A stretch of DNA of 42,029 bases, from the NCBI GenBank assembly GCA_022573895.1, contig JACZTB010000011.1, forward strand, positions 1 through 42,029, read 5' to 3'. The translations under genes were made by a program, and so were the position numbers. Under the pieces are notes generated by a model that saw only the letters and a list, made by a program, of their open reading frames with translations, had not been told where the DNA came from and ran no database searches. This DNA is from Nitrososphaerota archaeon (lineage in GTDB: Archaea; Thermoproteota; Nitrososphaeria; Nitrososphaerales; Nitrosopumilaceae). Positions 2-20,532 of the stretch are shown in pieces. Each line of letters opens with the position of its first letter. Positions within the stretch are counted from its first letter, which is position 1.

Positions 2-1300
2 CCATTAAAAAACACATTTGCTCTAATTGGGAGTTATAGAAATTACAATGAAGTTGAATCCATATTTAATCTCAATCAACCTAAATTTGAAAAACTAAAA
101 GCCATTAAAGCCAAAATAATTGAAGATAGTACAAGAATTTCTAAAAATGAGGAACCTATCATATTTGAATATTTGAAAAATAAATTATCTTTTAGATTAA
201 ATAATATTGAATCTGATTTATACGAGGGAAAAGTAAAAAACCCAAACAGCATTAGTGCTTTTGAATTTTTAAAAAAGGAACAAGAGTATGGCACTTTAAA
301 TAAATTATTGAATGATTACCTTGGTCTATCATTAGAAATTACACATAAAGAAGAAACTATGGAATATCACTTTAATTTCGTAGATTTGAAAGAAGAAAAA
401 ATAGCATTAGTTCAGGATCTTAGTGCTGGAGAAAAAGGCATTATTCATTTTATTTTTAGCATATATGGATATGATTTAGAATCAGGAGTAATGGTTATAG
501 ATGAACCTGAACTTCATCTTCATCCTCAAATTCAACAGAAATATTTGGATATTATTTCAAATACTATCCAATATCTAGATTTACAGTTTATCATTGCAAC
601 TCATTCTCCTATTTTTGTCAATGAAGAAACCATTGAGCATACATACAGATTCTATAAGAGTGAAGATGATTTTACACAAATTAAAACTTGTTCTAAAATA
701 GATGCAGATATGAAAAGTAGAATTCAGATGTTAAACTATACAAATTCGGCAATAGTATTTTTTGTGGAGAAAGTAATTCTTACAGAGGGTTATCGTGACA
801 AAATATTTTTCAAAAAATATCTAGAAAATTATAAAGCAAGACACAAAAAGGACATTTCTAAAATTGAAATATTAGCAATGGGAGGTGCAGGAGAATATGA
901 AAAATGGCATAAATTTTTAGAGGAATTTGAAATCAAGACGTATTACATAGGGGACGCTGATAATTTGAAGCATTCATACATTTCACATAATTCTGCAAAC
1001 TGGAATACTTTATTCAGTGGGGCAATGTTAAGAAATGATATTCTCTCATTAAAACAGAATGCGCCTGCGGAATATCAAAGGATGGTAAACGAAATCAAAC
1101 AACATTATGCTTCTGACATATATCTACTTCAAAATGGAGCGTTTGAAGATTATTTTGAACAAATGACTAATGAAAGTAAGTCAACAAAAGGGGTGACCAG
1201 TTTCTGTTTATCTGATAAATTTGAAAATTGGATTAATTCGAGTTACTATCACCCTTATGCAGTCGAAATAGAAGGCATTATGTTCAAAATTGTTAATTAA
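2..1300 (+). CDS. OLD-family ATPase/TOPRIM nuclease, 5' truncated by window edge
   Basis: The reading frame is open from base 2 with no stop, so the gene starts before the window and the N-terminal Walker A part is not seen. An internal TTG at 173 is not the real start. Visible motifs, in order: an ABC-type signature LSAGEKG (about base 419), Walker B VIDEPELHLHP (about 493), a switch histidine in IIATHSP (about 595), then a TOPRIM-like half with ILTEGYRD (about 778) and IGDADN (about 948). This is the ATPase plus TOPRIM layout of OLD nucleases, which act in phage defence, alone or in Gabija-like pairs. No UvrD-like helicase partner follows. The stop overlaps the stop of the convergent zinc-ribbon gene by four bases. 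Confidence 0.85.
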   Translation, partial: PLKNTFALIGSYRNYNEVESIFNLNQPKFEKLKAIKAKIIEDSTRISKNEEPIIFEYLKNKLSFRLNNIESDLYEGKVKNPNSISAFEFLKKEQEYGTLNKLLNDYLGLSLEITHKEETMEYHFNFVDLKEEKIALVQDLSAGEKGIIHFIFSIYGYDLESGVMVIDEPELHLHPQIQQKYLDIISNTIQYLDLQFIIATHSPIFVNEETIEHTYRFYKSEDDFTQIKTCSKIDADMKSRIQMLNYTNSAIVFFVEKVILTEGYRDKIFFKKYLENYKARHKKDISKIEILAMGGAGEYEKWHKFLEEFEIKTYYIGDADNLKHSYISHNSANWNTLFSGAMLRNDILSLKQNAPAEYQRMVNEIKQHYASDIYLLQNGAFEDYFEQMTNESKSTKGVTSFCLSDKFENWINSSYYHPYAVEIEGIMFKIVN

Positions 1301-1572
1301 TCACAATAAGGACATTCAACCTCCTTTGTCCTCTTTGATTTAACCATTGCAAGAAATACAGTATTACATTCAAAACAATAGAACTTTTTTCTGTGCCATT
1401 TCCTAGATTTGTAAAATAAAGCCTGCAACCAATTGATTTGATTACAATACAATTTCCAAACTCCATCTTCTATTTTGTAATAGTAATGATGCCAATGTTT
1501 CTTTGTAGAACGTTTATGTCTAAAATTTCCTCTATGTTTGTATGTTTTTGATACACTAATTACGTAAATCAT
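1297..1572 (-). CDS. Small basic zinc-ribbon protein
   Basis: A 91-residue protein of unknown function. The C-terminus carries a zinc-ribbon pattern, CFEC near residue 67 and CPYC at the end, so four cysteines can bind one zinc ion. The N-terminal half is rich in Lys, Arg, His, Tyr and Trp, which fits nucleic-acid binding. It starts with ATG. An inverted repeat at 1574-1601 lies directly in front of the start. It is convergent with the OLD gene and overlaps its stop codon. Its place in the island suggests a small element-borne binding protein, but I cannot name a family. Confidence 0.65.
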   Translation of the reverse strand: MIYVISVSKTYKHRGNFRHKRSTKKHWHHYYYKIEDGVWKLYCNQINWLQALFYKSRKWHRKKFYCFECNTVFLAMVKSKRTKEVECPYCD

Positions 1573-1625: not shown

Positions 1626-2318
1626 TTATTTTTTATTTTTTGGAGAAAAAACTTCAATGCATCTGTCTAAATCATCTTTATCGTAAGGACACTTTTTATA
1701 ATGACGAATTTTACTGATAGCTTTTTTTACATCTTCTTCTTCGTAGTAACCCCAACAAATTCTACACAATGCTATGTATCGTGTTTCAGGTTCAAGAAAT
1801 TTTGGTGGCAGAGTCATCTTATGTCTTGTTTTGTAAAACTCTATTGCTTTTCTTTCATCTGCCTTTCTTGATGTTACTTGACTTAACATTGTAAGAAATT
1901 CCCTAATTTGTTCTGCTTGTTTATAGGCTAGTGAAGATTCGGGATAACGATTTTGAAAATAATGGATTCCTCTTTCAATTCCATCTATTGCAATGTTTAA
2001 TTTATTTTGTTCTTCATCTTCTGTATTTTCTCTATCATAAAATTGAAAACTTTGGAAAAAACTATCTATCATACTGGAAGAAAATAATTGATTCTTGTAT
2101 TCTTGATCTAAAAGTTTGTTTTCTGCAAGGTACTTGTAAGTTTCAAAATTAGCTAATGTTCGCTCAAGTGTTCGTTGCTTGTTAACGTGTAATTGACTCT
2201 CATCATAGTCTTTTTCTGTAAGATATTTTGAAAAATTAGGCTCAACCATTAAAGGCGTTTTAAGCCTCTTTGGCTGTTTCTTAATTTGTTCGCTTTTCGG
2301 AATATTCTTTTTATTCAT
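1626..2318 (-). CDS. Unknown protein with C-terminal Cys/His cluster
   Basis: A 230-residue protein that I do not recognise. The N-terminus is Lys-rich and polar, the middle (about 50-160) is predicted helical, with many Gln, Glu and Lys. The last 60 residues contain CRICWGYYEE, then H, CPYD and a further Cys (DRC), a possible treble-clef or zinc-finger site. It starts with ATG and is transcribed away from the 83-residue gene at 2398. The shared 80-base intergenic region holds a nested palindrome covering this gene's expected TATA position. A DNA-binding or element-maintenance role is possible but not shown. Confidence 0.6.
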   Translation of the reverse strand: MNKKNIPKSEQIKKQPKRLKTPLMVEPNFSKYLTEKDYDESQLHVNKQRTLERTLANFETYKYLAENKLLDQEYKNQLFSSSMIDSFFQSFQFYDRENTEDEEQNKLNIAIDGIERGIHYFQNRYPESSLAYKQAEQIREFLTMLSQVTSRKADERKAIEFYKTRHKMTLPPKFLEPETRYIALCRICWGYYEEEDVKKAISKIRHYKKCPYDKDDLDRCIEVFSPKNKK

Positions 2319-3012: not shown

Positions 3013-3354
3013 ATGATATCAATAGACCTAGATAAAATTAACTCACTATTAGATGAGCTCAAAGGACTAAAAATCAAAGAAGCCGTTTCGCTACGTAAAC
3101 GACTAAACAAAGAAAAAGAAAAGATTGCAGTTCCTGAACCTAAACCCGAGTCTGTTGCAAGTGATTTGTTTGATGCAAACAGAAGACGTTCTAACTTTAT
3201 GAAAGGAGTTTGGCGTTATGTAAAATTGGTAAGAGATACATATCCCGAACTAAGAGAGCAGTTCACATCAAGGCAAATGTTTAGCCAGTTCTTTGCACGT
3301 AGACGAGGCGAAGATGTCGAGATTAATGATGTATTTTGGCAGAACCCGAGTTGA
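3013..3354 (+). CDS. Unknown basic protein overlapping polB; terminal-protein candidate
   Basis: A 113-residue protein, ATG start. The first 40 residues form a likely coiled coil (KINSLLDELKGLKIKEA), followed by a Pro/Glu linker and a basic helical C-terminus with RRRSNFMKGVWRYVKLVRD and FFARRRGED. It overlaps the start of the polymerase gene by 19 bases, so the two are translationally coupled. In other protein-primed replicons the terminal protein that primes DNA synthesis is often encoded just upstream of the polymerase. The position, charge and available Ser/Tyr residues make it a candidate, but there is no sequence signature for this role. Confidence 0.6.
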   Translation: MISIDLDKINSLLDELKGLKIKEAVSLRKRLNKEKEKIAVPEPKPESVASDLFDANRRRSNFMKGVWRYVKLVRDTYPELREQFTSRQMFSQFFARRRGEDVEINDVFWQNPS

Positions 3355-5156
3355 TTCCAGAATCTCTGCCAAAGATTCCACGCCTTAAACATCTAAGAAA
3401 AAGGGTTCAATTTCGCAGAAAAGCAATATCAGATAGGCGTAAAATCTACGCTTTAGATACGGAAACCACACAAAAAGGTGAATTATTACTCCTTGCAGAT
3501 AATGAGGGAAACTATATCGACTGTGATAAGTGCAAGATCAAAGAAGTCCTGAAATTTCTTTTCTCTAAAAGGTATGAGGGAACTTGGAATTTTTTTTGGA
3601 ATCTACATTTTGATGCAAGAATTATTCTTAGAATGATACTTTCAGAACTATCTGACAAAGACCTAAACAAGTTCTATTACACATTCAAATGCAAGATACA
3701 TGGTTATTCAATTCACTATATCGAAAAAAGAAAACTATCAATCAGAAAGGGAAAACATTCTGTAAACTTTTTTGATATTGCACAATTTTGCCCTCAAGCA
3801 GAATTAAAACAGGCTTACAAATCTGACATCAAAAAACCATTACCAAAATACTATGATGTAATGAAAGAATCAAGAAGTGATTTTACAAAAGACTATTACA
3901 AACGACACAAAAGACAAATGAGAACTTACTGCATTGATGATTGTATTCTCACTCAAGAACTATCCGTTCATTGGGTCGATATGTTTTACAAGGCGTTTTT
4001 GTTTTACCCATCTCATTGGATTTCTAGTGGTTACTTGGCAGAAAAGATTTTGATTAATCATGGTGTAATGATTCCAAAGTTTGATGATACTCCCTTAGAG
4101 ATTCAAGAACTAGCTTGGAACTGTTATGTAGGTGGAAGAATAGAACTTGTAACTAGAGGTTTTACTGATAAAGCCTACATCTACGACATTAATTCAGCTT
4201 ATCCTTATGCACTAACAAAAATTCCTGAATTTACTAAAGGTGATTGGATTCAATCAAAGACTGTTCTATCAAATGCCCTACTAGGATTTTTTAAAATCAA
4301 ATGTAACATTCCTGAAACAAAACACATCACGCCATTTTACTTCAAAGTTAGAAACAAGATTATTTTTCCCAATGGCGAATTTATCACGTATGCAACACTT
4401 GAGGAACTCAAATCATGTGAGGATTCATCGTGGTTTGAGATTTTAGAATCGTGGCAGTATGTGGATAGTAATCCGTTTTATCCATTCAAGCGAGTAATTG
4501 AGGAATTTTACGAGAAACGGCAGGAACTAAAAAGAAAGAAAGACCCCTTGGAACTACCTATCAAGATTATTTTAAACTCAATTTATGGAAAGACAACACA
4601 AACAACAGAAAACAAGATTGGGAATCTGTTTAATCCAATAATTGGCTCTAGCATTACAGGAATTACCAGAGCCATGCTGTATCATGCAATTATGGAACAT
4701 GGGATTGAAAATGACATAGTCATGATGTATACTGATAGTATCACTACTACCAAGAAACTAAACCTTGATTCAAAGAAACTAGGGGAATTTTCTTGTGACT
4801 TTAAGGGTTCGATCTATGCATTACAAAGTGGGTTCTATGCCAAGAACGGATACTTTGAGAAATCTCGGGGCATTGGACAACTTGGTGATGAAACCATTAT
4901 TCACAAAGACACAAAATTAGACTCAAAAGGAAGATTGGTTTACGAATTTGAAAAGACTAGAGTAGGAACTATCAAATTAAACATCAAACGCAAAACCCTA
5001 GAGAATATTGGTTCCTTTACTACTGTTAAGAAAAACTTGAAACTTAATGGTGATAGAGGTCGACATTGGTGGGGTAAACTTAGTGATGTTCGTCTTAAGG
5101 AACGTAACATTTCAACTCCATTTTCGTTTCCAATAGATGATCCTACAAAAATTTGA
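3336..5156 (+). CDS. Family B DNA polymerase, protein-primed type
   Basis: A 606-residue polymerase with an N-terminal 3'-5' exonuclease: Exo I YALDTETT (D41, E43), Exo II NLHFDARI, Exo III YCIDD. The polymerase core follows: motif A DINSAYPYAL (D284), motif B KIILNSIYGK (N414) and motif C MYTDSI (D467). The insertion between motifs A and B, the SAYP form of motif A and the short length are typical of protein-primed polymerases of viruses, linear plasmids and casposons. Motif C usually reads YxDTDS; here the first Asp position is Tyr. The TTG start overlaps the preceding gene. It is probably the replicative polymerase of the integrated element. Function as a class is sure; the exact start is less so. 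Confidence 0.93.
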   Translation: MAEPELIPESLPKIPRLKHLRKRVQFRRKAISDRRKIYALDTETTQKGELLLLADNEGNYIDCDKCKIKEVLKFLFSKRYEGTWNFFWNLHFDARIILRMILSELSDKDLNKFYYTFKCKIHGYSIHYIEKRKLSIRKGKHSVNFFDIAQFCPQAELKQAYKSDIKKPLPKYYDVMKESRSDFTKDYYKRHKRQMRTYCIDDCILTQELSVHWVDMFYKAFLFYPSHWISSGYLAEKILINHGVMIPKFDDTPLEIQELAWNCYVGGRIELVTRGFTDKAYIYDINSAYPYALTKIPEFTKGDWIQSKTVLSNALLGFFKIKCNIPETKHITPFYFKVRNKIIFPNGEFITYATLEELKSCEDSSWFEILESWQYVDSNPFYPFKRVIEEFYEKRQELKRKKDPLELPIKIILNSIYGKTTQTTENKIGNLFNPIIGSSITGITRAMLYHAIMEHGIENDIVMMYTDSITTTKKLNLDSKKLGEFSCDFKGSIYALQSGFYAKNGYFEKSRGIGQLGDETIIHKDTKLDSKGRLVYEFEKTRVGTIKLNIKRKTLENIGSFTTVKKNLKLNGDRGRHWWGKLSDVRLKERNISTPFSFPIDDPTKI

Positions 5157-5199: not shown

Positions 5200-5589
5200 T
5201 TGAAAATACAAAATTGGCTTTATGATGTGTTAGTAGATATGAAGATTGACGACATACATAGAAAAAAAATTCTGAAAACCTTGACGGATTATACAAAAAA
5301 TGAGGACATCCAGCAGTTTAAGGATGATTATGATCCTAAAACATACAAGAATTTAACAAACTTAGTTACGAATATTGTAGGTAGTATAACATCCTCTTAC
5401 GATGACGTCCATCAACAAATTAACAAAAATGGTAACGTCCTTACAGAAATTGCAAAACTTGGAAAAGGGGGTCAGAGAGCATCTAGTTGGAAGATGGGTA
5501 TGTATGCAGCATCCTTCTATATGGGAACTCGTGAAAGAACTTTAACAGAATTGTTTTCTGAAGATATTAAAAAATTAAGACAAAAATAA
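5200..5589 (+). CDS. Unknown helical protein downstream of polB
   Basis: A 129-residue protein with no motif I recognise. It is mostly helical and charged in the N-terminal two thirds; the last third contains GKGGQRASSWKMGMYAASFYMGTRERT, split by a short hydrophobic stretch that is too weak to be a clear membrane segment. The TTG at 5200 is used here; an ATG at 5239 is an alternative, and TATA-like stretches (5162-5169 and 5184-5195, sharing a repeated AGCATATT) fit either. It is the last gene of the rightward block and is followed by a hairpin region. Confidence 0.55.
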   Translation: MKIQNWLYDVLVDMKIDDIHRKKILKTLTDYTKNEDIQQFKDDYDPKTYKNLTNLVTNIVGSITSSYDDVHQQINKNGNVLTEIAKLGKGGQRASSWKMGMYAASFYMGTRERTLTELFSEDIKKLRQK

Positions 5590-5686
5590 GTATTCAAATT
5601 AATAAGCACTTTCCAACAAATCATACCATCATCCTACGTTAGTCAGACGCATGTTTTTACACACAAAGAGGGGGGATTGCCTTTTT

Positions 5687-5706
5687 ACAGATTATCTGTA
5701 ATCTGT
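5687..5706. terminator. Perfect hairpin between convergent genes
   Basis: ACAGATTA (5687-5694) and TAATCTGT (5699-5706) form a perfect 8-base-pair stem with a TCTG loop. It lies in the 171-base gap between the ends of two convergent genes (5589 and 5761), a natural place for a two-way terminator. A G-run at 5668-5675, rare in this AT-rich DNA, sits just upstream. A recombination or replication site is an alternative. Confidence 0.35.
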
Positions 5707-5760
5707 TTGGTAAATTCCTCAAGGTTGTAGATGATTAAAAAAGCTTTATAGTAATTTTAA

Positions 5761-7230
5761 TTATTTTGGAATATTTTCCAGATTTTTAATCACAAAAACT
5801 GTTAATTCTGCTTTCCCTGTTGCATTTTCATAAGTAATCTTTAATTCATCATATTGTGAGACTTCAAGAAATCCATCATCATACTCATTTCCCTGTGTTT
5901 TAGATATTGCTTTACCTTCAAAATCATACGGTTCTTTTGTACCGTCATCATTTACACCAATAAAACCCAAAATTCCTTGGAATATAGCTGTACCATTACC
6001 AGTTTCCTTTAAACGATAATTTTCAATTTTTCCTTTAGAACTTTGAATTATTAATTTAGAATCATTTCTATCACCTACAATTTCTGGAACTTGATTGTCT
6101 TTATCAGCATCAGGATCAATTACAGTCAGAATCATATCGGAACCCCAAGCATAAACCGATTTGTCTGATTGTAATACCGGTTTTCTTGCATCAATTCTGG
6201 TGAAATCTTGGGCTTCAGTTGTAGAATGTTTTGCTATTACAACATACTCTTCTCCAACTTCCCAACCATCATCATCCATGATAAAGGAGGTTTGATACAA
6301 ACCTGCTGACTTTAATTCTTCATTATCATATTTTTCAGGGTCGATCTGTTTTTCAACAAGTAGTTTTCCTTTGGAGTTAAAAACCTGAAAAATTATTGGT
6401 TCGCCAGAAATAACTTCAGGCATATTTGCACGCATGTAAACTGTACTATGAAGAGGGTAAACAATTCTATCAAAGGCAACAGAAATCTGTGGTAATGATA
6501 TTGGTTTCTTAATACGTAACTTGTCTTTCAAAATCGTTTCCTTATTATCATAATAGTACGAAATAGAACGAAGAATTTCTTCAGAATAAAATTTTAGTTG
6601 ACGCTCTTCAGTAGCATCTAAATCTCTAGTATGAGAAATTGCATTTCTAATAGGTTCAATTTCTTTTAGTTTAGAATCGATCTTATTTTTATCACGAAAA
6701 ACATATTGAAAAACATCATTCCAATTATTTTTCATAATAATTATTTTTGCATATTCTGTAAAATCAATATAATTAATCAATGATTGTTTTTTAAAATTCC
6801 AATCTTTTCTAGATTCATCATCATTCTTCCTTCCTTCAGCATCTTGTTTTACATCTCCAGGAATAAGTTGTTTCCACCAATTTTTGTTGATTTCAGATAG
6901 TTCTTGTTCAATAAGCTTTCGAATTATTTGTTCTAGGTTTTTCAGTATGACATATGACTGAGTGTTTAAATCATCAACCTTTTCTGTTTTTTCTAATTCT
7001 TTCTTACCAGTACTATTAATTTTATAAAATCTAAATTGTCCCGCACTTGTAGTATGGTCTATTAGATTATCTTGTTCCATTAGAATACAAAGTCCTTTGA
7101 CTTCCTTCACGTCCAGATTGCATTCTTTTGCTATTGTCTCATCGTCAACATCATATTCAGGGTTTTCTTTGAATTTTTTGTTGAGATAATCCAGAATTTT
7201 CATTTGTTTTTCTTTATCGGATAAAGACAA
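5761..7230 (-). CDS. wHTH - HEPN - Ig-like fusion protein
   Basis: A 489-residue protein with three parts. Residues about 8-75 look like a winged helix (DYLNKKF...IAKECNLDVKEVKGLCILM). Residues about 90-230 carry a helical HEPN-type domain with the signature RNAISH (R195, H200), as in Swt1-like and other RNA-cleaving HEPN proteins. Residues about 240-489 are beta-rich Ig-like repeats (for example LTVIDPDADKD, TAIFQGILGF) resembling the domains of secreted archaeal surface proteins. No signal peptide or membrane span is visible, so it should be cytoplasmic. TTG start; an ATG at 7203 is possible. An inverted repeat lies at its promoter. A nucleic-acid-sensing toxin or defence effector is the best guess. 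Confidence 0.75.
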   Translation of the reverse strand: MSLSDKEKQMKILDYLNKKFKENPEYDVDDETIAKECNLDVKEVKGLCILMEQDNLIDHTTSAGQFRFYKINSTGKKELEKTEKVDDLNTQSYVILKNLEQIIRKLIEQELSEINKNWWKQLIPGDVKQDAEGRKNDDESRKDWNFKKQSLINYIDFTEYAKIIIMKNNWNDVFQYVFRDKNKIDSKLKEIEPIRNAISHTRDLDATEERQLKFYSEEILRSISYYYDNKETILKDKLRIKKPISLPQISVAFDRIVYPLHSTVYMRANMPEVISGEPIIFQVFNSKGKLLVEKQIDPEKYDNEELKSAGLYQTSFIMDDDGWEVGEEYVVIAKHSTTEAQDFTRIDARKPVLQSDKSVYAWGSDMILTVIDPDADKDNQVPEIVGDRNDSKLIIQSSKGKIENYRLKETGNGTAIFQGILGFIGVNDDGTKEPYDFEGKAISKTQGNEYDDGFLEVSQYDELKITYENATGKAELTVFVIKNLENIPK

Positions 7231-7253
7231 TTTAATTAAAAATCGTGTAGGAC

Positions 7254-7282
7254 ATTCATAAAGTAAACTAAATTTTATGAAT
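7254..7282. promoter_or_regulatory. 9-bp inverted repeat upstream of HEPN fusion gene
   Basis: ATTCATAAA (7254-7262) and its exact reverse complement TTTATGAAT (7274-7282) are separated by 11 bases. They lie 24-52 bases before the TTG start at 7230, over the expected TATA box. A dyad operator for the HEPN fusion gene is inferred. Confidence 0.45.
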
Positions 7283-7331
7283 TAAAGTTCAAAAATTAAA
7301 TCAAAATTTAAGAGAAAATAGAAATTAGTGC

Positions 7332-7460
7332 CTAAAATTCGTCCTCTTCTTCATTTTCAATGACTTCATCACATTCAGGACACACAAAGTCACCTTCCTC
7401 ATCTGGAGTCATTATTTCGTCACAATCAGAGCATATGGGAACAGCCATCCAACGAGTCAT
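7332..7460 (-). CDS. 42-residue zinc-ribbon microprotein
   Basis: A complete 42-codon frame, ATG to TAG, giving a very acidic protein with CSDC near residue 10 and CPEC near residue 27, a compact four-Cys zinc ribbon. The C-terminus is almost all Asp and Glu. It starts two bases after the stop of the 49-residue gene upstream, so the two form an operon. The paired cysteines spaced for a zinc ribbon and the tight coupling argue for a real gene despite its size. Function unknown; such microproteins often act as adaptors or regulators. Confidence 0.7.
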   Translation of the reverse strand: MTRWMAVPICSDCDEIMTPDEEGDFVCPECDEVIENEEEDEF

Positions 7461-7462
7461 TT

Positions 7463-7612
7463 TCACTCTATCTCAAAAATAACTCGTTTTGGTTTGATGT
7501 TTTTTCTTTGAATATCATTGAATTTATCTTTGTTAATAGTACAGGTGATCGTACCATCAGACTCTATTGAACATTTTTGCAGAGGGATTTCATCTTTCAA
7601 ATCATTTTGCAT
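7463..7612 (-). CDS. 49-residue unknown microprotein
   Basis: A complete frame from ATG (7612) to TGA (7463). The protein alternates charged and beta-prone stretches: CSIESDGTITCTINKDKF, with two Cys nine residues apart, and a basic end KPKRVIFEIE. It is the first gene of a two-gene unit with the 42-residue zinc-ribbon protein, only two bases apart. I recognise no family. Codon use and tight spacing make it a likely gene. Confidence 0.6.
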   Translation of the reverse strand: MQNDLKDEIPLQKCSIESDGTITCTINKDKFNDIQRKNIKPKRVIFEIE

Positions 7613-7646
7613 AATAATTGATATCTTTGAGGTATTTTAAACACCC

Positions 7647-7961
7647 CTATTCCAAAGTATAGGAAACACGAATTTTTTTATCAAGTTTTCTTGAAGAAAA
7701 TATTCTATTATTATTTAAAGGAGTTGATATTTTTAAATTAGATTCACTAATTTGATTAGCAACTAATAATTTAGGCTCTATTTCATATTCAAATGTTTGT
7801 TGTTTGAATTTTTTTATCAAATAAAAAATCACATCTCCATAACTTAAATTCCATGTAGCAGAAATTTCATTTGCAACTATTTGTTTTAATTGATCAAGTT
7901 CATTTTTTAAAGAATTATTAATCATTATCTGAGAAAATGATTTTCTGCTAAATCTTTTCAT
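7647..7961 (-). CDS. Small basic protein, possible ribbon-helix-helix regulator
   Basis: A 104-residue, basic protein. The N-terminal 55 residues (SQIMINNSLKNELDQLKQIV followed by LSYGDVIFYLIKKFK) have the strand-helix-helix look of ribbon-helix-helix DNA-binding proteins, where the second helix often starts after a serine. The C-terminal half is polar and less structured. A perfect 12-base palindrome lies one base in front of its ATG, which would fit autoregulation by a dimeric binder. The family call is tentative. Confidence 0.55.
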   Translation of the reverse strand: MKRFSRKSFSQIMINNSLKNELDQLKQIVANEISATWNLSYGDVIFYLIKKFKQQTFEYEIEPKLLVANQISESNLKISTPLNNNRIFSSRKLDKKIRVSYTLE

Positions 7962-7962
7962 G

Positions 7963-7974
7963 TGTATCGATACA
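7963..7974. promoter_or_regulatory. Perfect 12-base palindrome at a start codon
   Basis: TGTATCGATACA is a perfect palindrome, one base upstream of the ATG of the leftward RHH-like gene that starts at 7961. Position and symmetry suggest an operator at the transcription start. Confidence 0.45.
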
Positions 7975-8088
7975 TATGGGATGATTTAAACACCAAGTTT
8001 TATCATAAAGATAAAATATTCAAAAAATATTTACATTAAAAAGAATCTGTTTGAATAATATATCATTTCAATCCATTAGAGTTATTCT

Positions 8089-9909
8089 CTATTTGGGTTT
8101 TCCACAAACACTACATTGAACTCCAATTCCACAAGGAATTTCATGTTCTATTTTTTGCTCAGACAGCTTAATACTAACATTGCCCATTTCGTGTCTTATA
8201 TCTACTATTCCATGTGGTTTTCCTTCTCTCATTAGTTTTTCTTTTATCTCCTGAAATTCTTTTCTTTTCTCTAAGGCAAGAACAAAAGAATTTGAATTCA
8301 TATGTTTGTCATAATCATCATACCAAGTTTCATAAGCTGAACGTAAATCTTTCATCTCAATTTGCTGCAAAATAGTAATATTGGATATTTTTTTTAAAAT
8401 GTATGAATATAATTGAGAAAATTCCTTTAATTCACTTGTTAAATCTGTCCATAATTGGTGATAATTCTCAAACATTTCATCATAGAACATCTCACTTCTC
8501 TTGATATGGGGGGTTGAGAGGCTAGTCGCAAGATCCCTCTTGGCATTGTTTTCCTCAATTACTTGAATTCTAGGGGATATTCGTAAAAAGGCCAAATATA
8601 GGAAGGAAATTTGCCTTTTAAAAATGGAAAGAAACATTTCCACATCAATTTTCTTCAAATTAGTCATGTCAAAATATGAGCCAATTGAGGTTCTCCAAAC
8701 TTTATGCGCAGGTATTAAAAGATGAAAAAATTCTCTATTGATGATTTCAACTAAGCGCTTTTGGTTATCACTTAGATCTGATTCTAATGATATTTTTAAA
8801 ATTTGTTCTGGAGTAGAAAAATTCCATATGGCTTCTATTTTTTCTAGTTTCTTTTTTATTATGCTATTTTTATTTTGAAATCTAATCTTCAATATGCCTT
8901 TATTCAAAAAATCCATTGAAGCATTTTCATTTTTTTCTAATTCCTGTTGAAATGTATCTATAATAAAATTCACACCATCTATTTTTGGAGTTTTATCTTC
9001 TTTTAAGAAATCTAAAATTAATGAAAATGGTTCTAATTCAAAATCATGTGTTATTTTTTTTATCTTTTGCCATATTGGTTTAATTTCAAAAAATTCAGAA
9101 ATATTTTTATCAATTAGATTATGGCACCCTAGCATATAGTTTGATAATTTATATCCTGAAGGTTTTTCCCAGATCAAAAACAAAAAAATTATTCCAAATA
9201 TAGTCAGAGAAATCTTGGAGTCTTTTGTTAATACATCATCTTCAGTTTGGAAAAAAAGGAGACATGGAAAAACATTTGATCTGTTATTATCAAAATTAAA
9301 ATATTTGTTTAATTTACTTAAAGAAATTTTTGTCTTTGATCTTTTTTTTGTCAGTTCAATTAACTTGTCAATTTTTTGATTAGGATTATAGCCAACCGAG
9401 CTCAAAAAGTCTGGTAACCATTTCTTTAGTTCGGGATATTTTTCATATAAAGAATAAAAATGCTTGAGTAACAGAAAGGTGTTTTTCTCTAGTGATGGCT
9501 GAATATTCATAGTATGTAATTTGTAAATTTTGATCATCTCCGGTAAAGAAAATTTTGCTGGATTTTTTGTATTCCAAAAAACATCAAAAATGATCTCCCA
9601 AAACTCATCAATAGTTAAATTACACTCTGTAAATAAAGTAGAGATTCCTGCATGTGTTAATTGTAAGATCTTTTGTGGTTTGCCTCGAATTTTTTTTATC
9701 TCTGCAAATTCTCTTTCAGCATTTTCAATTAACTCCTTTTTTCTTAATTCGTTTACTGCCTTGATTATTGATTGAGGGGTTAATTCAAACTTGTTTGCAA
9801 TTACTACATTTGATGAACGCTCATTTACGAACAAAAATATCATTATCTCTCTTTGTAACCCTGGGAATTTTCTCTTAACGAGGTTAGATTCTTGGATTAT
9901 ATCAGCCAT
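8089..9909 (-). CDS. Large winged-helix protein of unknown function
   Basis: A 606-residue protein. Residues about 14-95 form a MarR-like winged helix: LQREIMIFLFVNERSSNVV, then a recognition-helix region TPQSIIKAVNELRKKELIE and a basic wing KKIRGKPQKILQLT. The long remainder is helical with no motif I recognise. The C-terminus ends with three cysteines (CGIGVQCSVCGKPK), a possible half zinc site that could be completed in a dimer. ATG start. A perfect 17-base palindrome touches the start codon, so it may repress its own gene. It is divergent from the AbrB-like gene at 9968. Confidence 0.7.
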   Translation of the reverse strand: MADIIQESNLVKRKFPGLQREIMIFLFVNERSSNVVIANKFELTPQSIIKAVNELRKKELIENAEREFAEIKKIRGKPQKILQLTHAGISTLFTECNLTIDEFWEIIFDVFWNTKNPAKFSLPEMIKIYKLHTMNIQPSLEKNTFLLLKHFYSLYEKYPELKKWLPDFLSSVGYNPNQKIDKLIELTKKRSKTKISLSKLNKYFNFDNNRSNVFPCLLFFQTEDDVLTKDSKISLTIFGIIFLFLIWEKPSGYKLSNYMLGCHNLIDKNISEFFEIKPIWQKIKKITHDFELEPFSLILDFLKEDKTPKIDGVNFIIDTFQQELEKNENASMDFLNKGILKIRFQNKNSIIKKKLEKIEAIWNFSTPEQILKISLESDLSDNQKRLVEIINREFFHLLIPAHKVWRTSIGSYFDMTNLKKIDVEMFLSIFKRQISFLYLAFLRISPRIQVIEENNAKRDLATSLSTPHIKRSEMFYDEMFENYHQLWTDLTSELKEFSQLYSYILKKISNITILQQIEMKDLRSAYETWYDDYDKHMNSNSFVLALEKRKEFQEIKEKLMREGKPHGIVDIRHEMGNVSIKLSEQKIEHEIPCGIGVQCSVCGKPK

Positions 9910-9926
9910 TTAACTATAATAGTTAA
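9910..9926. promoter_or_regulatory. 17-base palindrome at start of wHTH gene
   Basis: TTAACTAT (9910-9917), one central A, and ATAGTTAA (9919-9926) form a perfect palindrome that directly abuts the ATG at 9907-9909 of the winged-helix gene. The half-site ATAGTTAA also occurs at the integrase start (13366-13373). A binding site for the winged-helix protein itself is the natural hypothesis. Confidence 0.5.
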
Positions 9927-9967
9927 TTTAGGCTTATTTAATATTGGCGGTAACTGCATAAACGTCT

Positions 9968-10228
9968 ATGTCAATAACACAACAATTTCCCAAAAACAAA
10001 CATATGATTGAAAAACAAAATAGGGTGAAAAAACTTGCCAAAATTCCTTCATATCTTTTAACTCATGAATTAACTGCTGCTCTAAAATTAAAAGAACAAT
10101 CTTTTATAATTTTAATTCCACAAAAACTAATTCAAAAACTTGGATATAACGGAGATGAAATTAATTTTGATCTAGTAAAATATGAAAATAAAATACATCT
10201 TATTCAATCAGATGGTGTGCTTAATTGA
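9968..10228 (+). CDS. AbrB/MazE-like small DNA-binding protein
   Basis: An 86-residue protein. The C-terminal half, SFIILIPQKLIQKLGYNGDE followed by a strand, loop and KIHLIQ, fits the swapped-hairpin AbrB/MazE/SpoVT fold (IP..L...LG...GDE pattern). The N-terminal half is basic and helical. ATG start, transcribed away from the 606-residue winged-helix gene, with four-base stop/start overlap with the next gene. AbrB-type proteins act as transcription regulators or as antitoxins; the following protein does not look like a known toxin, so a regulator is more likely. Confidence 0.65.
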   Translation: MSITQQFPKNKHMIEKQNRVKKLAKIPSYLLTHELTAALKLKEQSFIILIPQKLIQKLGYNGDEINFDLVKYENKIHLIQSDGVLN

Positions 10229-10530
10229 AATCAAAACAAAATTCTGATGAATTAGAAGATTTTGCACACAACTACATTCCATTTAGAACGAAATGTCCTG
10301 AATGTATTAGAATAATTAAAGGTAAAAATCATGTTAAAGTTCATAAGAATTTAGCTAGTCTTTCATGGCATATTAAAAGAGAGCACAAAACAATATCCAC
10401 TATTAAATTTAATATGATGGAAATAATAAAACTCTTAAAGACAATATCAAAGGCTCTAAATTTAGGGTTAACGTGCTCTGAAATTACAAAAATATGTAAA
10501 GCATCACATTTAGGAATGATATCATACTAA
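10225..10530 (+). CDS. Small C2H2-type zinc-finger protein
   Basis: A 101-residue protein with TTG start overlapping the AbrB-like gene's stop by four bases. It holds CPEC near residue 24 and H-x4-H in WHIKREHK about 25 residues later, a C2H2-like zinc finger. A basic, helical C-terminal half follows (IIKLLKTISKALNLGLTCSE). Small C2H2 proteins are common in archaeal viruses and plasmids, often as transcription factors. Operon with the AbrB-like protein suggests they work together. Confidence 0.65.
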   Translation: MKSKQNSDELEDFAHNYIPFRTKCPECIRIIKGKNHVKVHKNLASLSWHIKREHKTISTIKFNMMEIIKLLKTISKALNLGLTCSEITKICKASHLGMISY

Positions 10531-10594
10531 TGATTTGTAGTTATGATGATGGAAAGACCTGGATTGATTTAGAATAATTAATTTTTTAATTTGG

Positions 10595-12037
10595 TTAGGA
10601 TTTTATAAAGAGAGAGTCAGAATAAATTTTGATAGGCTCACTAAGATATCTCTGCAAGTCTTGGTCGTGTTTTGAAGTATTTCCAGACTTACAATTTAAG
10701 AAATGATCATCAATATGTATCGAAAAGTCATAATCATATACTGTATCAAAACCAACTTGTAATTCTAGGTCATTTTCAAAAGGTGCGGTATGCTCAATTT
10801 TAAGTTGAAATTCAATTTCTTTTTCAGTACCATCATTAAATTCTTTTTCTATCCATTTATTTTCAGTATGAACAGCTATTTCAAGACTACGTGGATCACC
10901 ATTAATTTTTGATACTTTTGCACCCTTAAATGGAATTGAAGATTTAAAACCAATTGAGTGACCTGTTGTTTTCACTTTTACTGTAAGAGTTCTTACACCT
11001 TCTACAAAATCCTGAATTTGTCTTGAAAAATATTTGCTTCCAAATTTTATTGGTAAAGCAATAATTTTTTCTCTAACCTCTTCTGGAAATTTTCGAATAA
11101 TTTGTTTTGATGATGGACCAATTATTATTAAACTAGGCTCATTTCTTAGCTTTAATTGCTCGATGAATGAATTTAGAATAAATTCATCATTAAATGCATA
11201 ACCCACCACATACCATTTTTCACACTTCATCAATCCACTCTTAAAATCCTGAAAAAGTGCATACCAAGGAAACAAATACAAATCTTTTTGCTGAATTGGA
11301 AATAGCATAACGTCTCCACCAGTTTGATAGGGTAGGAACCCCGAACTTTTTTTCTTAATGAGACTGCCGTTTTCTTTGTTAAATGTCCAATCTAAAGAAC
11401 CATGAAGCTTGGTAAATGAATGATCACCTAAAACTAATCGACCCGTATTGAATGAGTAATTATCAGAATGTGGTTGTTGATCAAAATGATCCTGAGGAGA
11501 TTCACAACTATTCCAAAAATATTCAAAAATATTATCATAGTTTGTAGTATAAGATTTCCAACCTGTTGCTAGATTGTATTTTCCATGGAAAGTTTTGTTA
11601 TTATTTCCTGTGACTATACCAAATAGAGGCACATAGGATTGTTCGTAAACTTCTCGAATCTTATCCTCTGAAAGATTTACTGTGCAAGAATTTTTTATGT
11701 ATTTTTTTAATTTATCTAATAATTTTTTAGCCTTTTCTTTATCATTTCCATCAAATGGTTCAGATAATCCAATTTTTGAAATGTAATACAATGCAAAATG
11801 ACCTAAATCTCTTGCTTTGGTTCCCTTTGAGATTCCTTCTATTACTGATAGCATTGCTTCGATGTCAATTGTTCCACTTCCAAATTGCTCACTGAGAGTT
11901 TTTTTTATCTGTGAATAATAATTAAAAAGTTCATTTTCCTCTTTAAGATCTTCTTCAAACTTTGTGACCATTTCTTGCATAGTGGGTATTTCAAATGGTC
12001 TTGAAGCTCCTGCACCAAAAAATACCAAATCAGGCAT
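10595..12037 (-). CDS. SIR2-domain protein, candidate NAD-degrading defence effector
   Basis: A 480-residue protein. Residues 6-14 read FFGAGASRP, the NAD-binding GAG-S motif; TTNYDNIFE (about 164-172), KLHGSLDW (about 210-217) and VVGYAFND (about 275-282) complete the SIR2 core with its Asn and His. This pattern belongs to SIR2-like NADases of defence systems rather than protein deacetylases, since no zinc-binding cysteines are present. Residues about 350-480 form a beta-rich C-terminal domain of unknown type, perhaps the sensor. ATG start. It sits next to the integrase gene, as cargo of the element. Function as an abortive-infection NADase is inferred from family knowledge. Confidence 0.82.
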   Translation of the reverse strand: MPDLVFFGAGASRPFEIPTMQEMVTKFEEDLKEENELFNYYSQIKKTLSEQFGSGTIDIEAMLSVIEGISKGTKARDLGHFALYYISKIGLSEPFDGNDKEKAKKLLDKLKKYIKNSCTVNLSEDKIREVYEQSYVPLFGIVTGNNNKTFHGKYNLATGWKSYTTNYDNIFEYFWNSCESPQDHFDQQPHSDNYSFNTGRLVLGDHSFTKLHGSLDWTFNKENGSLIKKKSSGFLPYQTGGDVMLFPIQQKDLYLFPWYALFQDFKSGLMKCEKWYVVGYAFNDEFILNSFIEQLKLRNEPSLIIIGPSSKQIIRKFPEEVREKIIALPIKFGSKYFSRQIQDFVEGVRTLTVKVKTTGHSIGFKSSIPFKGAKVSKINGDPRSLEIAVHTENKWIEKEFNDGTEKEIEFQLKIEHTAPFENDLELQVGFDTVYDYDFSIHIDDHFLNCKSGNTSKHDQDLQRYLSEPIKIYSDSLFIKS

Positions 12038-12088
12038 GATAATACTTTATGAATAGATATTAAAAATTGATCATTATACATCTAGATT

Positions 12089-13357
12089 CTAAACTCCTAT
12101 TCTTCTCTCTAAATTTTGTAACTGTCTTGATAAATTATCTACGATTCCACGAAGTTCTTGATTGTCTCTTTGCATATCTGAATAGTTCTGGTCACTCTTT
12201 TCAGTATCTGCAATTGTAAGTGCATGCTCTATCTCCAAGTAAGTTTTAGCTCGTGTTTTCTCATTTTGGCGATAATACACCAACTTCAAAGACTTGTGAC
12301 CCATTAGTGCTTCTGCAAAATCAGATTGGTGGGCATCTGTAACTTGGGTCTTAAACCAGGCCCGAAATGCATGAAAATGGATGGAATTTCTGCCATTTTC
12401 GTTTTTTGTATCAAGCTCTGTAACGTTCTTTATCATATTGGATAACTGCTTTTCTAAATTATGATTTGTGGATAATACACTTTTGGCGTATCTTTCTTCT
12501 TTAGAAATATTTCTGAGATTAGACTCTAGAATACTAATGTTTTTCTTATCCATTTTTTGAAGACCATTATTACCATATTCGTTTTTTTCCAATCGATCTC
12601 TTAGATTCCTTAACCTATCTTCATGTTGTAGTAAAAACACATAATCTTCATTTTTCATCTGTCTGTTCTTTCTTGAAAGATAATCTTTCAATGCACTTGC
12701 AGCTTCAGATGAGATGTGAGTTATTCTAGTTTCTCTAGTCTTTGTTGTTTCTGCCCTTATAGTAATTGTGACAGGTTCTGTGAAATTAATATCTGAGAAT
12801 CGAAGCTGTACAATTTCTCCTATTCTCATTCCACTAGAACATGCAATTAGTACAGTTGCTGCTAGCTTTGCATTTGCAAGTCGAACTATTCTATTTATGA
12901 TATCTTTTGATAGTCCTTTTTCGTAGACATTTATTTTTCGTGGAAGCTTGAATCTCTGCTTTATGTCCTCGTTGTATATTTTACAACCTTCGCCATTTAG
13001 AAACTCCTTTGCTACTGCGATATAATCACAAATTGTCTGATTGCTATATCCAATTTTGTCTGAATTTTCTCGTTTGTATTCTGCTAAAAACGAGTAGAAA
13101 TTATCCAAAATCTCAACTGGGTCTGTCTTTTTTGCCTCTATCTTTCTTAATATCTGAGAAATGTCAAGATTATATTGTATACGTAGGAATCTCATGAATT
13201 TCTTTAGTGCAGAGTTGTAGGTGTTTTTTGTAGAGAAACTACGAGATGTTCTAAACTTTTTCTCAAGAAATCTAGTAATTTTGTCCTCAACTGCCTGAAT
13301 TTGCATCAAGTCTGAGTCTTTCTCTGAGTTACTTAAAGACCGAGATGATAAAGTCAC
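12089..13357 (-). CDS. Tyrosine recombinase (integrase)
   Basis: A 422-residue site-specific recombinase. An N-terminal SAM-like core-binding domain (about 30-140) is followed by the catalytic domain: first Arg in SSGMRIGEIV (about R178), HAFRAW (H-x-x-R, Arg 332), MGHKSLKLVYYR with the likely nucleophile Tyr. A Lys in TTKTRETR is a candidate for the beta-hairpin lysine. The last 50 residues form a leucine-rich coiled coil (DNQELRGIVDNLSRQLQNLE), possibly for multimer contacts. GTG start at 13357, overlapped by a short palindrome. It is intact, unlike split SSV-type integrases. It lies 22 bases from mtnP at the presumed island edge, and so probably moves the island. Confidence 0.92.
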   Translation of the reverse strand: MTLSSRSLSNSEKDSDLMQIQAVEDKITRFLEKKFRTSRSFSTKNTYNSALKKFMRFLRIQYNLDISQILRKIEAKKTDPVEILDNFYSFLAEYKRENSDKIGYSNQTICDYIAVAKEFLNGEGCKIYNEDIKQRFKLPRKINVYEKGLSKDIINRIVRLANAKLAATVLIACSSGMRIGEIVQLRFSDINFTEPVTITIRAETTKTRETRITHISSEAASALKDYLSRKNRQMKNEDYVFLLQHEDRLRNLRDRLEKNEYGNNGLQKMDKKNISILESNLRNISKEERYAKSVLSTNHNLEKQLSNMIKNVTELDTKNENGRNSIHFHAFRAWFKTQVTDAHQSDFAEALMGHKSLKLVYYRQNEKTRAKTYLEIEHALTIADTEKSDQNYSDMQRDNQELRGIVDNLSRQLQNLERRIGV

Positions 13358-16974: not shown

Positions 16975-19068
16975 TTAAGCCTTTGCCTTTTGAAATTTAT
17001 CAAGATCTTGCTTTCTAACTACATTTTGATATTGTCTAATTCTTTCAGCAATTAGTCTATACAATGATCTGAATTGGTCTTTTGTTTTATCTGATAGAAA
17101 ACTAGTTTCTTCTAGTGTAATTTTTTCACATATGTATCTGGTGATCTCTTCATTGTCAAATTCTCCCCAATCATCTTCTCTGTGCTCTTCCCATATCTTT
17201 CTCAACTTGTCTAAGATTCCTTTACTTTCTTTAGAAGCAACATCTTGAGGTGTGATATTTGAAAATCCCTCACGTCTCAACTTTATTTCATAAGTTTGAT
17301 TTACTACATGTAGATAATCTTCAAGAACGATATAATCTTCAATTGATTCTAGCTTTTTTCCTTCTCTCTCAAAGAAGATAGTCTGAATTGATGAGAATTC
17401 ATTTGATACTAATTGGGCAGAAATTTGTTTGGATTCTTCGGTATTGTCTAATAAAACAAATGTCTTGTAACCATGATTTCTGTAAAATATTGCTAAAGGT
17501 AAAACTGAATTTTTGTTGTATGCTGCAACAATATTCAGAGGATTCATTGATATATTTGGATCCTGTAGAAATTTGTCAAAAGCATTTAGATACATTGAAT
17601 CAGACATTGTCTCTACAATAATTACCGGTCTGGAGTTTGTTCCAATTTCTCTATCTACAATAGATTCAACCAGTCCTCTAGACAGTCCATACAAAATTGG
17701 TGTTAATGTATTATCATCAGCATTCCAATAATCATAGAAGATTCTGCTGAGATGTTTTCTTTTGTCTAACTCTACAACAAGTAGGTTTCCAGGAGTGTAG
17801 TCAAAGATCATAAATGGTGAATGTGTTGCATACAATACTTGGTTAGAACCAGCTAAATTTTTTAATAAATCTGAAATTCCCCTCTGCTGTATAGGATGAA
17901 GATTTCTTGCAGGCTCATCTAAAAGTAATATTGCTTCTTTTAATTCTGATCTTTGTGTTTCAGCTGCAAAGTTTACAATAAAAGAAAATGTCCACTTGAA
18001 GCCTTCTGCTCTTCTGTTTAACAATCCTGTGTTTGTAATTGTTCCATCTTTGTGAACATCTGAAATTACAACACTCAAAATATTTCCTGGATTGTATCTC
18101 AAATCTACATGGATGGGATCTCCCTTCCATACCGGATTCAATTTACTAGTCAATCTATTACCTGCTGCATTAAGAAGTTTGATACATTTTGAGGGACTCT
18201 CTTTTACTTTATCTAACTCTTTCATATCTAATTCAGCTAGATAGAAGAGATTTCTTACCGTCTCTGCTTTATCAAATTCTTCAATGTATTCAATCGAATT
18301 TACTTTTTCTCCTTTTTCTTCTTTAAGATATTCGTTAAGATTGATGTTTCCATAGATTTTTTTATAATCTGAAAAGTAAACAAATCTCGGATGTAATTCA
18401 GATGCAACAAAATTCTGCAAGGCTGTTTTTTGACTTTCACCACTTAGTAGATTTGAAAATTGGTTTTCTGGACTTTCATAGATTTTTTCCCATTCCTCAA
18501 TGACTTTAGGTTCTTGAACTGCTATGACATGAAATTGATTACTAAATTCTGCCATTTCAGTATCAAATGCTTCTTGGTTCTTTGGAACTGATCCTTCAAA
18601 GAATTTTGTATCAATCTGTATTCTAAGATGGTTTGGAAGAGTGTCTAAAAATCCCAGAATCTGCTTTGAGAAATTTTCCCATGAATTGAGTCCTTTATCC
18701 TCCTCTTCACCAAGTTCAATTTCTTCAAATTCGTATCGAACTTTTGAATTTCGATTCGTTCTAAATAATTTGATTTTTTTTATTTCGGGCAAGCCAGGAA
18801 ACTTTTCTTTTATTAGGCTAATTTCATTTTGGTTTAGTTCAAATTCTCCTTCCACTAATCTAATCTCATCTTTGAGCTCTTCAGCCATTTCGTCACAAAG
18901 ATCTAGTTCTGAAACCTGTTCATCCTTATTCAACAAGATTAATGCTTCAAGAATAGTGGTTTTTCCACTTTCATTTCTTCCAATAAAGGCTGCTAAATCA
19001 CCAACAGTAATTTCTCCAGAATCATGAATACAGCGAAATGCTTTAACTCTAAATTTCCTAAGTCGCAT
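16975..19068 (-). CDS. OLD-type ATP-dependent endonuclease (AAA_15)
   Basis: A 697-residue protein with a complete N-terminal SMC-like ATPase: Walker A GRNESGKTT (30-38), Walker B ILLLDEPARNLHP (about 385), switch YATHSPF. A TOPRIM-like half follows, VIIVETMSDSMYL (about 477) and FVLLDNTEES. The second TOPRIM acidic cluster reads DN rather than DxD, so nuclease activity should not be assumed. ATG start. It stands alone between a secreted protein and a small membrane protein on other transcripts. Compared with the fragment at the window start it is a separate gene, not a recent copy, since motif surroundings differ. Confidence 0.88.
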   Translation of the reverse strand: MRLRKFRVKAFRCIHDSGEITVGDLAAFIGRNESGKTTILEALILLNKDEQVSELDLCDEMAEELKDEIRLVEGEFELNQNEISLIKEKFPGLPEIKKIKLFRTNRNSKVRYEFEEIELGEEEDKGLNSWENFSKQILGFLDTLPNHLRIQIDTKFFEGSVPKNQEAFDTEMAEFSNQFHVIAVQEPKVIEEWEKIYESPENQFSNLLSGESQKTALQNFVASELHPRFVYFSDYKKIYGNINLNEYLKEEKGEKVNSIEYIEEFDKAETVRNLFYLAELDMKELDKVKESPSKCIKLLNAAGNRLTSKLNPVWKGDPIHVDLRYNPGNILSVVISDVHKDGTITNTGLLNRRAEGFKWTFSFIVNFAAETQRSELKEAILLLDEPARNLHPIQQRGISDLLKNLAGSNQVLYATHSPFMIFDYTPGNLLVVELDKRKHLSRIFYDYWNADDNTLTPILYGLSRGLVESIVDREIGTNSRPVIIVETMSDSMYLNAFDKFLQDPNISMNPLNIVAAYNKNSVLPLAIFYRNHGYKTFVLLDNTEESKQISAQLVSNEFSSIQTIFFEREGKKLESIEDYIVLEDYLHVVNQTYEIKLRREGFSNITPQDVASKESKGILDKLRKIWEEHREDDWGEFDNEEITRYICEKITLEETSFLSDKTKDQFRSLYRLIAERIRQYQNVVRKQDLDKFQKAKA

Positions 19069-19637: not shown

Positions 19638-19692
19638 GAATGAATAATTGTATGATAAATAAGGAATTGAATTTAAAAAACGAGGTAATTTG

Positions 19693-20532
19693 ATGACAAA
19701 GAAAAAAGATTCTATAATTGATGAGGCCGAAAAAATTAAAGCAGAACTTGATGAACTCAAAAAGAAAAAGAAAATTTTAGATTCATACCCAGCAAAGAAA
19801 ACAACAAAGAAAGCTGAAGTAAAACCAGCCAAGAAAACAACCAAGAAAGCTGAAGTAAAACCAGCAAAGAAAACAACCAAGAAAGCTGAAGTAAAACCAG
19901 CAAAGAAAACAACAAAGAAAGCTGAAGTAAAACCAGCAAAGAAAACAACCAAGAAAGCTGAAGTAAAACCAGCAAAGAAAACAACAAAGAAAGCTGAAGT
20001 AAAACCAGCAAAGAAAACAACAAAGAAAGCTGAAGTAAAACCTGTAGAAAAAAAATTAACTAAAAAAGAGTTAGAAGAAACTAAAAAGGAAGCTGAAAAA
20101 ACACTAGAAGAAGAATTAGAAGAACAACTTTCTGAAAAAGAAATTGAAAACTTTAAAATTGAGAAAGTTGATATGGAAAGACTCACAAACAAAGTTTGTG
20201 ATATTTTAGCAGAACGTGAGTCAAATGGAATGTTTCAAAGTGAATTGTGGAAAAAACTTAAACTTACAACTCGTGATGGTGCTCGTCTAGCATTAAAACT
20301 AGAACGAATGGGAACAATTACTAGAGAAAAACTTCTTGAGAAGGATCGTTGGACTTACAAATTAATTTTAAAGAAGACTCCAATTAGTACACAATCAATT
20401 GAAAATGCTCCTTGTTTGGTTTGTCCTGTTGAACAGAAGTGTTCACTTGAAGGTGAAATTAGCCCAAGGAATTGTCAATTCATTGAAGATTGGGTAATTA
20501 TTGAAATGAAAAAACCTATGAAGTCCAAATGA
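19693..20532 (+). CDS. TFE-beta/RPC34-like winged-helix FeS protein with Lys-rich repeat tail
   Basis: A 279-residue protein from the ATG at 19693, which has GAGGT about six bases upstream. After a short helix, residues 33-116 are seven copies of PAKKTTKKAEVK, a histone H1-like basic tail, then an acidic coiled stretch. A winged helix (about 155-225, GMFQSELWKKLKLTTRDGAR) leads to four cysteines C241, C244, C250 and C261, spaced C-x2-C-x5-C-x10-C. That order matches TFE-beta, the archaeal RPC34/RPC39 ortholog with a 4Fe-4S cluster that helps promoter opening. The Lys-rich repeat is unusual for the family. Stop overlaps the rlmE start by four bases. Confidence 0.75.
   Translation: MTKKKDSIIDEAEKIKAELDELKKKKKILDSYPAKKTTKKAEVKPAKKTTKKAEVKPAKKTTKKAEVKPAKKTTKKAEVKPAKKTTKKAEVKPAKKTTKKAEVKPAKKTTKKAEVKPVEKKLTKKELEETKKEAEKTLEEELEEQLSEKEIENFKIEKVDMERLTNKVCDILAERESNGMFQSELWKKLKLTTRDGARLALKLERMGTITREKLLEKDRWTYKLILKKTPISTQSIENAPCLVCPVEQKCSLEGEISPRNCQFIEDWVIIEMKKPMKSK
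19789..20040 (+). repeat. Seven tandem 36-base coding repeats
   Basis: Seven in-frame 36-base units, each encoding PAKKTTKKAEVK, differ only at a few silent sites (for example CCAGCC versus CCAGCA and ACAACC versus ACAACA). Near identity means recent expansion or ongoing homogenisation; copy number is likely to vary between strains. Confidence 0.95.

Follow-up and report, generated by a model that had tools for sequence, protein, structure and literature searches.

A small protein encoded directly upstream of polB as candidate terminal protein of a family 1 casposon from Nitrosopumilaceae

Which protein could serve as primer for the protein-primed family B DNA polymerase (PolB) that is encoded near one edge of a contig from a Nitrosopumilaceae genome? 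The window analyzed here is this whole contig (G000:C11, 42,029 nucleotides), and its nearest named relative is found in a Nitrosopumilus MAG (L061). A first-pass annotation had proposed that the 113-residue product of an open reading frame directly upstream of the polymerase gene, termed p113 in the following, is the terminal protein of this polymerase. On the basis of sequence comparisons, we consider it rather probable that p113 is indeed the protein primer of a family 1 casposon. The annotation did not recognize the casposon, and its central idea was already in print: Krupovic et al. (2014) noted that a conserved, suitably placed gene of family 1 casposons "could encode a terminal protein" and that terminal proteins are highly divergent (PMC4046053). 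The proposal was thus made independently of the earlier work and is not new, and p113 is a good candidate that was largely anticipated.

The p113 gene and the polymerase gene that it overlaps

The p113 gene is located on the forward strand (3013-3354), begins with ATG, the sole start codon of its open frame, and ends with a TGA at 3352-3354. Its last 19 bases (3336-3354) overlap the beginning of polB, just as first described. The protein is 81% identical to its nearest relative from L061, and the differences between the two genes at first, second and third codon positions amount to 20, 8 and 39. When the overlap with polB is left out, dN/dS for this pair is 0.13, close to the value of 0.105 for polB, and since 30 relatives were found in addition, p113 is a real protein under purifying selection. 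The description of the protein as basic holds with a pI of 9.6 in the window and of 9.6 to 11.6 across the 30 relatives. Of the coiled coil originally claimed, solely two long predicted helices (residues 6-37 and 49-76) remain. They stem from an AlphaFold2 model based on a two-sequence input (mean pLDDT 73.8), which is helical throughout and leaves the tail (residues 111-113) loose (pLDDT <50).

The statement that p113 has no other recognizable role is also borne out. A profile of the 30 members matched no convincing family in Pfam, NCBIfam or PHROG, and searches by sequence found no relative of solved structure. In comparisons of the predicted fold, the best Foldseek match had an E value of 0.34 and the best VIA Z was 4.4 (63 aligned, rmsd 3.9), the matches consisting of common helical arrangements. 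No terminal protein was among the matches compared, an absence that excludes nothing.

The polymerase gene (3336-5156, forward strand) starts with TTG at 3336, where the relatives carry ATG (MAES...). The two genes overlap by about 20 nt in 17 of the 30 loci and share an ATGA start/stop in 13. PolB matches Pfam family DNA_pol_B_2 (6e-21) and a PHROG DNA polymerase (3e-56), its nearest phage records are Hardyhisp2, His2 and His1, and, judged by similarity, it is a member of the protein-primed group of family B polymerases on the casposon/His1/His2 branch. Residues D41/E43, D93, Y198/D202, D284, K410 and D467 in Exo I-III and motifs A, B and C are invariant in 19 aligned sequences. Motif C reads [FY]ATDS or YTDS in casposon PolBs, with another residue in place of the first Asp of DTDS, the common form, in 19/19 aligned sequences; the same Asp is also missing from the aligned His1, His2, ABV, Toil and Forthebois polymerases. 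The insert between motifs A and B has approximately the length of the phi29 TPR1 in the alignment and is assigned to TPR1 by length and position alone. The TPR2 region between motifs B and C is, again in the alignment, much shorter than in phi29, PRD1, His1 and His2 and similar to that of ABV, Toil and Forthebois. A structure model of PolB proved unusable (pLDDT 37.6), and a PDB profile search with the PolB alignment returned no match at E 0.001. The family commonly contains isolated C-terminal PolB fragments (about residues 495-594), e.g. at G176:C1:990722-991260 and on G212:C37 and G116:C13, which are either decay products or point to a separate use of that domain.

The conserved tail and candidate priming residues

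Only three columns of the 30-member p113 alignment are invariant, N111, P112 and S113, the codons of which occupy positions 3343-3351 on the forward strand. A final Pro follows the serine in 28/30 sequences, and the window protein and a near relative end on the Ser itself. Ser113 (codon at 3349-3351) is encoded by TCN in 14 of the 30 genes and by AGY in the other 16, and serine is kept throughout in both overlap arrangements. As a switch between TCN and AGY needs two base changes, selection appears to act on the amino acid, which makes Ser113 the favored candidate priming residue. The overlap with polB constrains the NPS codons in part. They overlap the polB start in 17/30 loci and precede it in 13/30, and in both arrangements their variation lies mainly at third positions of the p113 frame.

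Three hydroxyl columns stand out, Ser60 (29/30), Tyr69 (29/30) and Ser113 (30/30), such conservation being necessary for a primer role and not sufficient for it. Tyr69 (codon at 3217-3219, forward strand) is the second candidate; it is His in L045 only, and the polB of L045 carries four stops. Ser60 was rejected as an essential primer, as L057, the repeats of which are intact (L087), has Ala at this position. To our knowledge, established priming residues sit inside the chain or near the N-terminus, and a last or next-to-last position would be unusual. We put forward only tentatively that p113 may prime from its C-terminal end.

In genes located just 5' of a pPolB gene outside casposons, Ser occurs within the last two residues in His1 (GSP), in His2 and the identical Hardyhisp2 (RSS) and in L169 (RPS). 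It is missing from the corresponding genes of LCBv1, ABV, ABV3, MetSV, Toil, DesireeRose, Forthebois, L118, L119 and L168, and L167 has no same-strand upstream gene within the stretch examined. With a background of 19% among open reading frames of at least 150 aa in the loci, a rule that pPolB partners end in Ser is unsupported. The L169 gene (G524:C9, 1943-2383), from a distant member of the phylum, precedes a PolB-like open reading frame and ends in Pro-Ser. The His2 and Hardyhisp2 proteins encoded just 5' of polB (L106:1942-2403 and L112:1930-2391) are identical; the spike proteins of His2 and Hardyhisp2 share 32% identity only (PMC8142566).

The casposon and the linkage of p113 to PolB

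The genes around polB make up the replication module of a family 1 casposon, which is cut by the contig edge on its left side and has 5686 as its last base. The left part (1-2318) encodes an OLD-like nuclease (173-1300, forward strand), a casposon cargo protein truncated at the contig start, a zinc-ribbon protein (1297-1572, reverse strand) and a 230-aa protein (1626-2318, reverse strand). Upstream neighbors of p113 on the forward strand are genes for an 83-aa protein (2398-2649, no Pfam family) and a 109-aa protein (2646-2975, no family), both present in part of the elements only. The 109-aa protein was considered as a single-stranded DNA-binding protein (SSB) and rejected, having no family and no link to the Forthebois ssDNA-binding protein. 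Downstream of polB a 129-aa protein is encoded (5200-5589, forward strand) that occurs in the window only and was not found in the other loci compared. The casposon ends 97 bases past this frame with the right terminal repeat (5670-5686, AAAAAGGCAATCCCCCC on the reverse strand), and the DNA to the right of 5686 is outside the element. By analogy with eight complete elements, positions 5687-5699 are presumed to be one copy of a 13-bp target duplication. Cas1 was not found on the window contig, which breaks inside the element, and the search for a partner contig with the missing left end found only parts of the right-end stretch elsewhere in the genome and nowhere the whole.

Repeat detection covered 20 PolB places, two of them in L105, and left out L102 because its polB is broken. 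Terminal repeats together with a duplication of at least 13 bp were detected in 8/20 places. All eight elements enclose polB, p113 and Cas1, have 5'-AAAAA ends and are flanked by exact 13-bp duplications. Repeats without duplication are present in L089 and L104, those of L095 and L100 are weak or doubtful, and none were detected in eight places (L086, L092, L096, L097, L101, L103 and twice in L105). The family 1 casposons described from Nitrosopumilus and its relatives, to which these elements belong, have the same kind of PolB, small conserved upstream genes, OLD-type cargo and terminal repeats, with Cas1 in the relatives (PMC4046053, PMC6563490); the window copy differs in being cut by the contig edge, with Cas1 and the left end off the contig.

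Many further casposon-like ends were seen in the same genome on contigs C9, C10, C23, C36, C41, C47, C51, C52 and C90 (L120-L145). Since two of them stand head to head on both C9 and C23, with a short duplication-like stretch between, casposon arrays are likely in this genome. In the window, the 3' end of a coding frame on the reverse strand (5687-5731; by eye ...IYNLEEFTKQITDNL and a stop) adjoins the casposon end. This 30-base flank recurs in near-identical form before the ends on C10, C36, C41, C51, C52 and C90 and represents a repeated insertion target. Between the casposon and the housekeeping genes lies an island with defence-like genes (5761-13357), encoding a HEPN protein (PDC-M34B model), a winged-HTH protein, a SIR2-like protein and a tyrosine integrase (12089-13357). 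The window contains two OLD/AriA-like ATPase-TOPRIM genes, the casposon cargo at 173-1300 and a second one at 16975-19068. A 280-aa protein (19690-20532) contains a lysine-rich KPAKKTTKKAEV repeat in about seven head-to-tail copies and is encoded beside a gene which we take to be that of an RlmE-like methyltransferase.

Searches of 250 genomes of the family found 30 relatives of p113 in 24 genomes, and in 30/30 cases polB follows directly on the same strand. Vice versa, all 30 PolB matches reaching the first 54 residues are accompanied by p113 (pairs hand-counted from two search tables), and those that begin only at residue 128 or beyond are fragments. The question raised by the first-pass annotation, whether homologues always accompany this type of polB, is thus answered in the affirmative for every match that keeps its N-terminus. 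Homologues without any polB, which the annotation had named as evidence against its reading, were not encountered. Profile searches with p113 found nothing further in the same 250 genomes and, in 398 genomes of the phylum, gave only one match outside the family, at chance level (E 7e-4) and inside a 1183-aa frame. A PolB match of some sort is present in 43, p113 in 24 and a Cas1 of any kind in 69 of the 250 genomes. Phage records contained six chance matches to p113 (E 6-10), IMG/VR gave no match to p113, PolB or the p113 alignment, and the PolB alignment retrieved from it two distant polymerases, L118 and L119.

Pairwise distances were compared for 18 elements with all three genes, one of the two L105 elements being dropped because both share one Cas1. 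They correlate strongly between polB and p113 (r=0.875) and hardly between polB and Cas1 (r=0.07) or p113 and Cas1 (r=0.11). The same split into two clusters (11 and 7 elements) applies to polB and p113, and Cas1 does not follow it. It follows that polB travels together with p113 and that Cas1 acts like an exchangeable component. This co-inheritance is partly plain linkage, as p113 overlaps or abuts polB, whereas Cas1 is 1.3-8.4 kb away. For 11 elements that contain the 109-aa protein and Cas1 as well, the correlation with polB is 0.41 for p113, 0.33 for the 109-aa protein and 0.29 for Cas1. The strict linkage, the co-variation with PolB and the invariant C-terminal serine strengthen the case for a terminal protein; p113 has no detectable sequence homology to a known one and is to be regarded as a candidate.

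Strict pairing with PolB would suit any obligate partner, and p113 might act without priming, as an origin-binding, DNA-coating or processivity protein that binds the repeat ends or stabilizes a polymerase that seems to lack most of TPR2. All 30 relatives are basic, the protein is helical with two long predicted helices and the TPR2 region of PolB is short in the alignment, all of which would fit such a partner. We nevertheless judge this unlikely, since p113 matches no known DNA-binding family and the strongest constraint is on the C-terminal NPS with its invariant Ser and not on a basic surface. Furthermore, this reading would require a different primer protein, and none of the other small genes occurs in every element.

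The latter point emerges from a count across 26 elements with a PolB open reading frame of >1300 nt, from which L003 (same contig as L061), L027, L102 and fragments were dropped. It yielded p113 in 25, the 109-aa protein in 15, the 83-aa protein in 14 and Cas1 in 20 elements, the six without Cas1 being short stretches. The sole element without p113, L101, carries a polB missing the first 127 residues and joined to other coding sequence. It is quite improbable that the terminal protein is instead the 109-aa protein, missing from 11/26 elements, the 83-aa protein, missing from 12/26, the product of a gene in the left part or a host protein. In all five second-branch loci inspected, the first larger gene met upstream of p113 is encoded on the opposite strand. 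Equally improbable is a start without any protein: the primer-independent PolBs known to us have no TPR1 insert, whereas casposon PolB keeps an insert of that size. These options gain some weight from the missing left end of the window element, from the three or four uncharacterized genes upstream of pPolB in family 1 casposons (PMC6563490) and from the existence of primer-independent PolBs (PMC7544198). The first-pass annotation had also asked for any other gene of the element matching a known terminal protein; there is none among the genes searched on the contig, and the left part of the element lies off the contig.

It is hardly credible that p113 is merely a small regulator or translational leader of polB with a tail reflecting the overlap and the ribosome-binding needs of the polB start, for although the two overlap arrangements and the GGAGG included in the W-R codons of many group II members could be read in this way, p113 is conserved along its length, with its low dN/dS applying outside the overlap, keeps Ser with changed codons and varies mainly at its own third positions, and its NPS does not vary in either arrangement, one of which places these codons before the polB start.

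Comparison with known systems and a possible priming mechanism

The arrangement of p113 and polB resembles that in phi29, in which the terminal protein gene (gp3) is located directly 5' of the polymerase gene (gp2) on the same strand, and that in PRD1, in which the gene for terminal protein P8 directly precedes that for polymerase P1. In contrast, gp3 has 266 aa in three domains and P8 has 259 aa, so that p113 with its 113 aa is less than half as long as either, and no sequence link to either protein was detected. The phi29 polymerase also differs from the casposon enzyme by its motif C (CDTDS versus ATDS) and its longer TPR2 region. PRD1 terminal protein primes from an internal Tyr. His1 ORF11 and His2 ORF15 share with p113 the position directly 5' of a related pPolB gene and a Ser within the last two residues; they differ in having no detectable homology to p113, and the Ser likeness may be chance in view of the background given above. 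An hhalign comparison of the p113 alignment with the phi29 and PRD1 terminal proteins and the upstream genes of His1, His2 and MetSV gave no match.

In phi29, the priming Ser resides in a disordered loop of the terminal protein and its exchange for Thr is inactivating, initiation takes place opposite a 3'-T of the template with sliding back, TPR1 is the main contact of the intermediate domain, which has two long helices, and a priming domain of four helices contacts TPR2 and the thumb (PMC4974454). By comparison, the two long helices of p113 may be the counterpart of the TPR1-binding part, and the C-terminal tail may do the priming. The 5'-AAAAA ends beside the 13-bp duplications are compatible with phi29-like priming.

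Starting from the observed gene, its strict linkage to polB and its constraint, the element ends of the relatives and a polymerase with a TPR1-sized insert, we infer the following scheme. p113 would pair with the PolB encoded directly after it, and PolB would link the first nucleotide, predicted to be dAMP opposite 3'-TTTTT, to a hydroxyl of p113 at the element ends. The accepting hydroxyl would most likely be that of Ser113 on the flexible tail and less likely that of Tyr69. Sliding back on the A run and strand extension would follow, with p113 staying on the 5' end, and the linear casposon copy would be integrated by Cas1 via its free 3' ends. Cas1 joins 3' ends to the target, and a protein on the 5' ends therefore need not block integration. 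A more far-reaching version, which we offer as a doubtful possibility, is that p113 represents a terminal protein in miniature, with a structure of a new type. Its invariant Asn-Pro-Ser(-Pro) tail would thread into the active site of the polymerase in the manner of a primer end, the phi29-type four-helix priming domain and its TPR2 holder would both be missing, and p113-PolB would form an autonomous module for replication, passed from casposon to casposon independently of Cas1.

An experimental test of protein priming in family 1 casposons was not found in the literature searched, in which it figures as a prediction only, and a 2023 review still speaks of three genes of unknown function (PMC9939771). 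As far as this literature goes, the new findings are the narrowing to one always-present gene, its invariant serine at the C-terminus and its exchange together with PolB as a pair. With several candidate genes cut to one and two residues named, a direct test of protein priming in a Cas1-based transposon comes within reach, using two small proteins. Should priming from the tail end prove true, its geometry would be new among family B polymerases, and it might provide a tiny primer-polymerase pair for in vitro use.
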